Part shown: one piece after another, positions 33,850 to 36,560 of the stretch | Layout: the number at the start of each line of letters is the position of its first letter | Numbering within the stretch: the first letter of the stretch is position 1 | NCBI GenBank assembly: GCA_018666555.1 | Contig: JABIZD010000084.1 | Span: forward strand, 1 to 64,000 | From: Gammaproteobacteria bacterium | Lineage (GTDB): Bacteria > Pseudomonadota > Gammaproteobacteria > Pseudomonadales > Azotimanducaceae | Direction: 5' to 3' | Length of the DNA: 64,000 nucleotides | Notes under the pieces: generated by a model | The model's database searches: none | What the model saw: the letters and a program-made list of their open reading frames with translations, nothing else | Told to the model about the DNA's origin: nothing | Made by a program: the position numbers and the translations under genes

Positions 33850-34743
33850 TTATCTGCTGATAACATCGACAGCATCAGAAGAGACCTGTCCTGTTAATAG
33901 GCTATTCAGCAATTCTGCCAGACGAATACCGGCAATAGCCAACCGGTGCTCTGCCACAGGCCAGTTAAGACGCCAATAGTTTGCGGATAGTCGCAACGAT
34001 TTACTCGTTATTGCCTGGCAACCTGCTGCGCTTATCTGGCAATACCGGGTACGAGGATGCCTGGCTATGGCAAAAGATTCATTGGCCCAATCGATCGACT
34101 TTTGAGACTGTTCAGAGCCTGCTACTTTAATACCTTCGGCCACATTTAGCAGCACTCGCAGCAACTGTTGTCGAGACTTTTTATTTTCTGCTAAGAGGCA
34201 GTAATCCCAGACAGCATGAAGATTCTTACATGCATCAAAACCGCTCACCCGAACCAGGTTTCCTCCCCGATCATCAGCAAAACTGACATGCATAGGCTGA
34301 TGCAGGTCACCAACCCAATGCCCTAGAAACATCAATGCCTGCAAGCGCGCCCAGGCGCTTAAATCTCGAGCCGACAGCATCGATGCGTGTTGATCCAGAG
34401 CAGCTAGAATACAGCCGGTCACGCAATAACCTCGATGCACGCTTTGGTCAATCCGATCTACGTTAACGTAATGCCAGGCTGCAATACTTTTATATTCTGG
34501 CAGGCTTCTGATTTTGTCTGCCCAAGTACACAAATCACCAAAATCGACTGCAGCGTCTTTGGAGATAAGCGCTTTGTGTTGTTTCGGAAGCGCAGTGAGC
34601 AAAATATCAAGATTATTTTTGACCTTCGGCTGAAGATTTTCATAGGCGATATCACAGACTAATTGATGCCCCATATCAGACCAGCCATAAACCTCCAGAC
34701 TATAGAAACCGATGATGACAATGCTGGCCCATCTTGCTAACAC
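33850..34743 (-). CDS. Secreted S1/P1-type nuclease
   Basis: 297 residues from a GTG at 34743. A signal peptide (ASIVIIGFYSLEVYG) is followed by Trp as residue 1 of the mature protein (WSDMGHQLVCDIAY), as in S1/P1 nucleases where that Trp binds zinc. The zinc-site motif LGHWVGDLHQPMH and the neighbouring DDRGGN are intact. These are periplasmic or secreted zinc nucleases cutting single-stranded DNA and RNA and removing 3'-phosphates. They serve nutrient (phosphate, nucleoside) scavenging. Located 175 bp downstream of the selenoprotein-like gene on the same strand. Confidence 0.9.
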   Translation of the reverse strand: MLARWASIVIIGFYSLEVYGWSDMGHQLVCDIAYENLQPKVKNNLDILLTALPKQHKALISKDAAVDFGDLCTWADKIRSLPEYKSIAAWHYVNVDRIDQSVHRGYCVTGCILAALDQHASMLSARDLSAWARLQALMFLGHWVGDLHQPMHVSFADDRGGNLVRVSGFDACKNLHAVWDYCLLAENKKSRQQLLRVLLNVAEGIKVAGSEQSQKSIDWANESFAIARHPRTRYCQISAAGCQAITSKSLRLSANYWRLNWPVAEHRLAIAGIRLAELLNSLLTGQVSSDAVDVISR

Positions 34744-34918: not shown

Positions 34919-35371
34919 TTAAACAGACCTGTCTGAGACCAGTTTTAGCCATTCAATATGATGGTTAATACGGAAATCTGCCCTGATACAAGCGGCAATC
35001 TTCTGCTCTTGATCAATTAAAAAAGAAGCTCTACGCACACCAATTCCAAACGGGCCATTCACACCATAAGCTTTAATGACCTGTTTATCCGCATCCACAA
35101 GCAAAGGGAAACCCAGATTATACTGGGCACTAAAGCGCTGATGGCTTTCTATACCCTGAGGACTGACCCCCACTACAGATAGGCCTTGGCTGCTTAAATC
35201 ATCACGCATATCACGTATGCGGCAGGCTTGTTTAGTTCATCCTGGTGTAAAATCTGCTGGATAAAAATAAAGGACCAGAGGCCCCTTAGATACCAAGTCT
35301 ACTAATCTAACCACTTCCCCATGCTGATCTGACAATTCAAATAGCGGTGCTTTAGCGCCTACCTTTAACAT
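34919..35371 (-). CDS. bcp: BCP-type peroxiredoxin with in-frame UGA at the peroxidatic position (probable selenoprotein)
   Basis: Reading from the ATG at 35371 gives 150 residues with one in-frame TGA at 35237-35239 (codon 45) and a normal stop at 34919. The flanking protein sequence is VLYFYPADFTPG, UGA, TKQACRIRDMRDDL. This is the standard BCP signature DFTPGCTKxAC with the peroxidatic Cys replaced by the UGA codon; the second Cys (50) is kept, matching E. coli BCP Cys45/Cys50. The rest is intact (SVVGVSPQGIESHQRFS; YNLGFPLLVDADKQVIKAYG; RASFLIDQEQK). Gene finders split it and start at the Met at 35209. A SECIS-like hairpin lies just after the UGA. Selenocysteine is the likely reading; a pseudogene by single substitution is the alternative. 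It needs SelA/B/C elsewhere. Confidence 0.8.
35205..35221 (-). promoter_or_regulatory. SECIS-like stem-loop downstream of the in-frame UGA
   Basis: On the mRNA strand, 15 nt after the UGA, a perfect 6-bp stem (CGCATA with TATGCG) encloses the 5-nt loop CGTGA, with G at loop position 2. The distance from UGA to loop is 21 nt. Position, stem and a G among the first two loop bases all meet the known requirements for bacterial SECIS elements, which bind SelB. Not experimentally tested. Confidence 0.65.
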
Positions 35372-35432: not shown

Positions 35433-36269
35433 TCATTGGTACGTGAATACGCCCTGATCGATGACAATATCACCATGTTGATTGCTGGTCCTGAAAATCA
35501 CTCTATCAGCTTCTTCCCACATCGACACCGTTAATGCATCACCCGGGTAAACAGGTTTTGAAAAGCGCGCATTCATGGAACGAAACCGCGCTGCATCGCC
35601 AGCACACATAACCTGAAGTAATCCCCGACCGGTGAATCCATAGGTACAAAGGCCGTGTAAAATAGGTTTTGCAAACCCCCCGATTGCTGCAAAACTTGGA
35701 TCAGAGTGCAATGGATTTCGGTCTCCTGACAACCGATAAGTTAACGCCTGATCTTCTCTGGTCGCATAGGTCACAGCGTGATCTGCATCTCGATCCGGGA
35801 ATTCAATCCTGTCATTCGGGCCACGATCTCCCCCAAACCCACCCTCACCTCGACAAAACAAAGTAGACCGGGTTCTCAATAAGACTTTACCCGTATTAAC
35901 ATCCTTTGATTCCGAACTGAAAGCAAGCACTCCGGCACTACCCTTATCATAGACGCCAACAATTTCACCGGTACTTTCAATCTCTCCCTCAACAGGAATC
36001 TCTGCAAGTAATTCAATGCCCTGCTCACCATGCACCATCATTGCGGGATTAAAAGAGCCCGCTGCTTTCATGGGCACGCCGCCACCTCCGATAATTACCG
36101 CGAATGTTGGAAATACCTGCTGTTGGAGATCCTTAGTGTTCTCGGTCGTATATTGCAGATCTTCGGTTCCAGCACCGATACCTACAGCATATAGTAATGC
36201 ATCCTTACCGGACCAGCTGCGTCGCGTCGGCGTTCCTTGAGTACCTACACTATCGGGATTCAGGGGCAT
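35433..36269 (-). CDS. MaoC-family (R)-specific enoyl-CoA hydratase, two hot-dog modules
   Basis: 278 residues from the ATG at 36269, chosen because GGAG lies 7 nt upstream and the sequence opens MPLNPDSVGTQG; an earlier ATG at 36386 would add 39 unlikely residues. The C-terminal hot-dog carries the hydratase-2 motif YRLSGDRNPLHSDPSFA (catalytic Asp and His) and GFAKPILHGLCTYG. The N-terminal half (LLYAVGIGAGTEDL; FAVIIGGGGVPM) is the non-catalytic hot-dog typical of peroxisomal-type MFE2 hydratases. It hydrates trans-2-enoyl-CoA to (R)-3-hydroxyacyl-CoA. The peroxiredoxin gene follows after 61 bp on the same strand. Confidence 0.9.
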   Translation of the reverse strand: MPLNPDSVGTQGTPTRRSWSGKDALLYAVGIGAGTEDLQYTTENTKDLQQQVFPTFAVIIGGGGVPMKAAGSFNPAMMVHGEQGIELLAEIPVEGEIESTGEIVGVYDKGSAGVLAFSSESKDVNTGKVLLRTRSTLFCRGEGGFGGDRGPNDRIEFPDRDADHAVTYATREDQALTYRLSGDRNPLHSDPSFAAIGGFAKPILHGLCTYGFTGRGLLQVMCAGDAARFRSMNARFSKPVYPGDALTVSMWEEADRVIFRTSNQHGDIVIDQGVFTYQ

Positions 36270-36560
36270 ACGATTCTCCAAATAATCATTTGTCTGGCAG
36301 TATAGCACCGCAAAATCTGTTTCGTCCTGACCAGATAAGAAGATTTCAGCCGCGTTCTGATATTTCCGCTGCCAAAATGCCGTCATTAAAGCGATAATAG
36401 CCGCTGGAGCGCTTCAGGTTCGGTGGGCTGTTCTGATAGTTGGTGATAACTTCACCTTGTCAGCATCCAGCTTGTCCAGGCCAGCAACGTCTCAGTACAG
36501 CCTGTCCTTACAGGCTTGTTCAGAGCACCACAAAAAACCAATGCGAGGCTAGTTCGCTCA

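Follow-up and report, generated by a model that had tools for sequence, protein, structure and literature searches.

A gammaproteobacterial peroxiredoxin gene of the Bcp/PrxQ type predicted to encode selenocysteine at the peroxidatic position

PrxU of Eubacterium acidaminophilum, reportedly described by Sohling et al. in 2001, is a peroxiredoxin with selenocysteine (Sec) at its peroxidatic position. Sec peroxiredoxins with a TxxU motif have also been catalogued. The published figures include 43 such sequences, under COG1225, in the Sargasso Sea selenoproteome (PMC1088965) and 253, under pfam00578, in the GOS selenoproteome (PMC2398784). The same kind is listed as COG1225 (Bcp) in a 2022 review (PMC9312934) and as PF00578 in a 2026 review (PMC13188914), and the selenoprotein table of a 2006 survey gives 12 for peroxiredoxin (PMC1794560). 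The gene described here belongs to this known kind. It shares with the Sargasso Sea and GOS sequences the domain family, the motif (T-P-G-U being a form of TxxU), a UGA at the peroxidatic residue and an origin in marine data; the likeness is one of family and motif as published, rather than of alignment, and on that footing no difference was established. The genome and neighbourhood context of the gene is an addition to what was catalogued in those data sets, not a difference in kind.

The window, by which we mean the whole stretch of 64,000 nucleotides that was analysed, comes from contig C156 of a 4.17-Mb genome in 217 contigs (97.6% complete). Translation of its minus strand gave a reading frame open across 150 codons, interrupted by a single TGA at codon 45 (Table 1). 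An initial annotation of the window had described the same frame with the same single TGA, and its coordinates were correct, but it had left the strand unstated. The encoded protein reads MLKVGAK...YFYPADFTPG-U-TKQACRIRDM..., in which a Cys, encoded by TGC, lies five residues past the peroxidatic residue; this is the Cys50 that the initial annotation had noted as retained. With TGA read as a stop, a 44-residue stub is left, and under translation table 11 the 3′ part forms a 96-aa open reading frame (ORF) at 34919-35209 (minus strand, start at 35209), the two products that had been anticipated. By the look of its N-terminus, the protein is cytosolic.

Table 1. Positions of the predicted selenoprotein gene, its recoding elements and its neighbours in the window
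Feature	Position	Strand	Basis or remarks
Predicted Sec-peroxiredoxin gene, Bcp/PrxQ type	34919..35371	(-)	Decoding TGA as Sec gives 150 residues; TAA stop codon
In-frame TGA (codon 45) in the place of the peroxidatic Cys (TPG-U-T)	35237..35239	(-)	Translation and aligned homologues
Cys50 codon, likely resolving cysteine (U45-x4-C50)	35222..35224	(-)	Translation and alignment
SECIS-type hairpin, CGCAUA-CGUGA-UAUGCG	35205..35221	(-)	21 nt between UGA and loop
MaoC/MFE-2 hydratase gene	35433..36386	(-)	Directly upstream, same strand, 61-bp gap; neighbour only
S1/P1 nuclease gene	33850..34743	(-)	Downstream of the peroxiredoxin gene; neighbour only

For family assignment, the protein was scored with C written for U. 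It matched the AhpC-TSA domain at 123 bits, and it has the combination that defines Sec-Prx of COG1225 (Bcp), i.e., an AhpC-TSA/Redoxin domain whose peroxidatic site reads T-x-x-U. The best NCBIfam model was the Bcp thiol peroxidase NF006960, at 114.2 bits, which is below the curated cut-off of 140 bits for that equivalog. The best solved chains by sequence were 3drn, a Bcp homologue, and 5epf, a peroxiredoxin; the fold of the predicted protein is already fixed by this sequence homology. The alignment with these Cys-containing Bcp/PrxQ proteins is nearly full length, and most of the Cys homologues listed have TPG-C-T-x-x-A-C, whereas the window protein has Sec (TGA) in place of the Cys. We conclude that, judged by its scores, the protein is Bcp-like and falls outside the NF006960 equivalog. 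The initial annotation had named PrxU as a relative. Both are peroxiredoxins with Sec, and to that extent the comparison holds, but PrxU is not the nearest kind: the PrxU equivalog NF040737 gave 40.1 bits against a curated cut-off of 270 bits, and its profile of 233 positions, compared with 150 residues here, represents another branch. On this score, we rejected PrxU as the closest family.

The genome of the window encodes the machinery for Sec insertion. We detected selA (523 bits, C152:44366-45481), selB directly after it (425 bits, C152:45526-47382), selD (251 bits) and a tRNA-Sec with the anticodon TCA, so that the four components by which a bacterial selenoprotein genome is recognized occur together, as the initial annotation had said they should if the gene is a selenoprotein gene. 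The selD match is the C-terminal part of a 733-aa protein (L134:2077-4278, minus strand) whose N-terminal domain is a pyridine nucleotide-disulphide oxidoreductase (Ndh-like). This arrangement fits the Ndh-SelD fusion that has been described from marine data (PMC2398784). The tRNA-Sec locus of genome G001 was labelled tRNA-Lys by ARAGORN; Rfam gave 49.8 bits for both of the loci compared, and their sequences are identical from GGTAGCG to the end.

The sel genes were recovered unevenly across the genus. Eight of the 12 genomes of the genus that have the TGA gene, the window's own included, gave a selA match. In G003 (93% complete), G007 (96%) and G006 (62%), we found neither selA nor an above-cut-off selB, and yet selD (partial in G006) and a TCA tRNA-Sec were present in all three. 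Since selA and selB are adjacent in the window's genome, one missing contig would remove both. No selD match was found in G009, which has selA, selB and tRNA-Sec, and the same was true of G034, a genome from another genus of the family. In G012, selA, selB and selD were present, and tRNA-Sec was not found among the 149 of 283 first-look candidates that were scored. None of selA, selB, selD and tRNA-Sec was found in the same-genus genome G014 (80% complete) at the thresholds used; G014 carries both the TGA peroxiredoxin gene and a TGA paralogue, and its missing sel genes are probably a draft gap. Overall, we infer that the gaps reflect the incompleteness of draft assemblies.

We searched 97 genomes, including the window's own, for homologues, and 95 gave some match. 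An orthologue with 52 to 73% identity was present in 11 of the 14 other genomes of the genus; none was found at that level of identity in G004, G010 and G013, which are 72 to 84% complete. All 11 orthologues have one TGA, at the same codon, and no other stop. By contrast, among 18 homologues retrieved from the family's other genera, all but one have Cys. We then tabulated 110 loci (L022 to L131), consisting of the best 80 of 502 relatives and the best 30 loci, with remoter homologues outside the count. Codon 45 was TGA in 24 of these loci, TGC in 56 and TGT in 30, and no other codon occurred. Removal of identical genes left 100 homologues, namely 14 distinct TGA sequences and 86 distinct sequences with TGC or TGT. 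The pairing of UGA with Cys codons, proposed initially as a check on the assignment of the TGA to the catalytic Cys, was thus seen throughout the column. Twelve of the 14 distinct TGA sequences, the window's included, are from the window's genus, so that these counts are not independent; one is from another genus of the family (L050, genome G034), and one is from a Planctomycetota bin (L126) whose genome has selA (400 bits).

A hairpin with the sequence CGCAUA-CGUGA-UAUGCG follows the UGA. The published model of the bacterial SECIS (bSECIS) gives a loop of 3 to 9 nt, a stem of 4 to 16 bp, 16 to 37 nt from UGA to loop, a G in the first two loop positions and a minimum free energy of at most -7.5 kcal/mol (PMC13188914). 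The window hairpin agrees with this shape, having a 5-nt loop with G second and then U, a 6-bp stem and a spacing of 21 nt. Its energy lies narrowly within the limit, and shuffled sequences do just as well. A 54-nt stretch containing the UGA and the hairpin folds at -7.6 kcal/mol (z, 0.16; an energy as good was reached by 104 of 200 shuffles), the 54 nt that follow the UGA fold at -8.5 kcal/mol, and the hairpin alone folds at -5.7 kcal/mol. Taken by itself, the hairpin is weak in the sequences compared (-2.0 to -5.8 kcal/mol). Nine of the 14 distinct TGA sequences (L026 to L033 and L126) have a 54-nt minimum-energy fold that lacks the hairpin, and the same holds for the remoter TGA gene L155. 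The evidence for the hairpin is therefore comparative, as the single-sequence fold by itself showed no special structure.

The comparison separated the two forms of the gene. The loop sequence CGTGA was present in all 14 distinct TGA sequences but in only 22 of 86 Cys sequences. A complete set of five stem pairs around a five-base loop was found in 13 of 14 TGA forms and in 1 of 86 Cys forms, the exception among the former being L126, which has a UGCUC/GAGCA stem and a 6-nt loop beginning CGUGA. A 20-nt piece folding at -3 kcal/mol or lower was found in 13 of 14 TGA forms, compared to 18 of 86 Cys forms. The difference extends to codon usage within the hairpin: where residue 52 is Ile, its codon is ATA in all 13 TGA forms and in 5 of 60 Cys forms, and the Arg53 codon CGT occurs in 14 of 14 TGA forms and 22 of 86 Cys forms. 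These patterns indicate a constraint on synonymous choice at the hairpin codons that the protein does not explain.

Where the UGA lies in the frame, its conservation, the machinery and the conserved hairpin can all be read from the DNA itself. We conclude that the gene very probably encodes a Bcp/PrxQ-type peroxiredoxin with Sec as its peroxidatic residue and functions as a selenoprotein gene rather than being a pseudogene. The probable selenoprotein of the initial annotation is borne out by the conserved TGA, the sel genes, the Cys/UGA pairs and the SECIS-type hairpin. Insertion of Sec at UGA45 by SelB and the hairpin is strongly indicated: Sec-tRNA would be made by SelA with selenophosphate from the Ndh-SelD fusion, SelB would bind the CGUGA-loop hairpin just past UGA45 and bring the Sec-tRNA, and the ribosome would then complete the 150-residue enzyme. 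How the enzyme turns over, what Cys50 does in the cycle and what reduces it we infer by analogy. The U45 selenolate would attack peroxide to give a selenenic acid, Cys50 of the same chain would resolve the selenenic acid to a selenenylsulfide, and thioredoxin would reduce the U45-Cys50 selenenylsulfide. The resolving role of Cys50 and the catalytic cycle are presumably those of the Bcp family.

Among the distinct sequences, all 86 Cys forms and 12 of the 14 Sec forms have Cys at position 50. In L050 and L126 the resolving cysteine is replaced by Arg, and Sec may make a resolving cysteine dispensable. An enzyme that works with Sec alone, taking its electrons straight from thioredoxin or glutathione and having no need of Cys50, would be compatible with Sec insertion and would account for Arg50 in 2 of 14 Sec forms and in none of the Cys forms, a pattern that looks as if Sec relaxes the need for the resolving cysteine. 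Nevertheless, Cys50 is kept in the window protein and in all 11 same-genus orthologues, and the branches of L050 and L126 are long, with an unsure placement on the tree. That tree, built by a quick method from 100 rows (42 of 97 inner branches have less than 80% support), requires three changes between Sec and Cys labels, with gains and losses not separated. We consider the Sec-only mechanism unlikely for the window protein, though it deserves to be taken seriously, and favour resolution by Cys50.

Sequence tools do not identify the residue inserted at the UGA, which could in principle be read through by other means. A near-cognate tRNA or tRNA-Trp would give Trp, Cys or Arg at position 45, or the codon could serve as a regulated stop. 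Yet all 86 distinct non-TGA homologues have Cys in this column and none has Trp or Arg, and the SECIS-type hairpin, together with SelB and tRNA-Sec, explains the recoding. Such readthrough is thus very improbable, and Sec insertion is the preferred reading.

We next compared the coding sequence on the two sides of the TGA. dN was lower than dS on both sides in nine of nine pairs of TGA orthologues. For L022/L023, dN/dS was 0.128/1.396 before the TGA and 0.207/1.075 after it, and for L028/L032 it was 0.041/0.952 after it. The gap between dN and dS after the TGA was about fivefold or more in eight pairs and about twofold in the weakest, L023/L024 (0.029/0.060). Since dN is below dS past the TGA, the part of the gene beyond it is evidently under selection as protein. 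A pseudogene or a sequencing error, in which a Cys codon was mutated or miscalled to TGA in a dead or misread gene, would need one base only (TGA versus TGC or TGT) and would leave just the 44-residue stub and the 96-aa ORF, but this explanation has next to no probability given the identical TGA in all 11 orthologues of the genus, each from another assembly, the low dN past the TGA, the selection on the synonymous positions of the hairpin and the presence of sel genes. The recurrence of the TGA in 11 other assemblies takes the place of the resequencing by which the initial annotation would have had the TGA checked. A reassigned genetic code was also considered and was rejected, since TGA ends 14 of the 44 mechanical ORFs of at least 250 aa in the window and is therefore an ordinary stop here as well.

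Gene order was examined at 16 of the best 80 loci (of 502 relatives). Ten of the 16 are named contigs, and their gene sequences are those of ten of the same-genus orthologues. In all 10 named contigs, the TGA gene is followed downstream by an S1/P1 nuclease gene and, farther along, by an epoxide hydrolase gene. A rhodanese-type gene lies on the opposite side in 9 of 10 (the contig of L071 reaches only 979 bases there), a GST gene is present in 7 of 10, and a MaoC-type gene is upstream in 2 of 10 (L052 and L053). L126 and five Cys forms shared none of the ten tested genes except the peroxiredoxin gene. The names of the contigs look like those of marine and coastal gammaproteobacterial metagenome-assembled genomes, and the bacterium and its genus are probably marine.

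A DNA pattern for the exact arrangement of Sec and SECIS, with Q48, A49 and the CGTGA loop fixed, was run against 369 genomes drawn from the class and matched the window alone. The other 368 include no member of the window's family, so that the result means no more than that this precise arrangement did not occur elsewhere in that sample of the class. A second predicted selenoprotein gene lies in the window's genome about 8 kb from selB (L133:13206-13787, plus strand, corresponding to G000:C152:55205-55786). It encodes a peroxiredoxin with TGA in FTGG-U-TLQC and a hydrophobic N-terminus (by eye, an export signal), and its hairpin has 7 bp, a CGUGA loop and the same spacing as that of the window gene. 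TGA forms similar to this paralogue were found in other genera of the family.

Besides the Bcp-type genes, at least 31 rows with TGA occurred among the matches listed, and all 31 were examined. The TGA was in the same column in 21 of them and three residues earlier in 10. The latter are redoxin-like genes from other genera of the family (L160, L162, L182, L186, L187 and L189 to L193) with TGA in W-U-P-x-C, three residues before the aligned Cys, and each has a downstream hairpin of a different sequence; these ten are probable selenoproteins of the UxxC type, which is another kind. We compared the loops in 41 rows (20 with TGA and 21 with Cys at the column) and added L188 as a 21st TGA row. CGTGA was present in 21 of 21 TGA rows and 0 of 21 Cys rows; five W-U-P-x-C rows (L160, L162, L182, L186 and L187) were kept among the Cys rows, and without them the latter figure was 0 of 16. 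The stem CGCUG/CAGYG had five of five pairs in 16 of 20 TGA rows and four of five in L163. In L152, L153 and L155, the stem is in another register, with GGRUUC/GAAUCC around a seven-base loop beginning CGUGA; these three genes, which come from other genera, make up a third TGA peroxiredoxin sub-family (U-T-x-E-G-x-G-F-R-D) within the family. L188 has the CGTGA loop and six pairs.

Hence, the same CGUGA loop is carried on different paired stems. CGU-GA(Y) forms the loop in all 35 TGA-column sequences examined (14 distinct, 20 and 1), on the stems GCAUA/UAUGC, UGCUC/GAGCA, CGCUG/CAGYG and GGRUUC/GAAUCC. The plain explanation is common descent of one SECIS with compensating changes in the stem. 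A more speculative alternative, which we regard as possible but rather doubtful, is that the SECIS was built on the codons of the conserved Arg-Asp pair past the active site and that its stems arose separately. If so, such peroxiredoxins would be preadapted for a change from Cys to Sec, since a single synonymous substitution (CGC to CGT) would supply the SelB-binding loop, and the resolving Cys could then be lost, as in L050 and L126 with Arg50.

Ordinary gene calling would split the enzyme into a stub and a fragment. Among the matches listed, the window's genome has a single other match to this enzyme, likewise with TGA, and the enzyme described here is likely a main peroxidase of its probably marine genus. 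Such a peroxidase would thus be missed because gene calling cuts the gene at the TGA. The close Sec and Cys homologues, with their shared SECIS loop, form a natural set for the question of how a protein switches between Cys and Sec.
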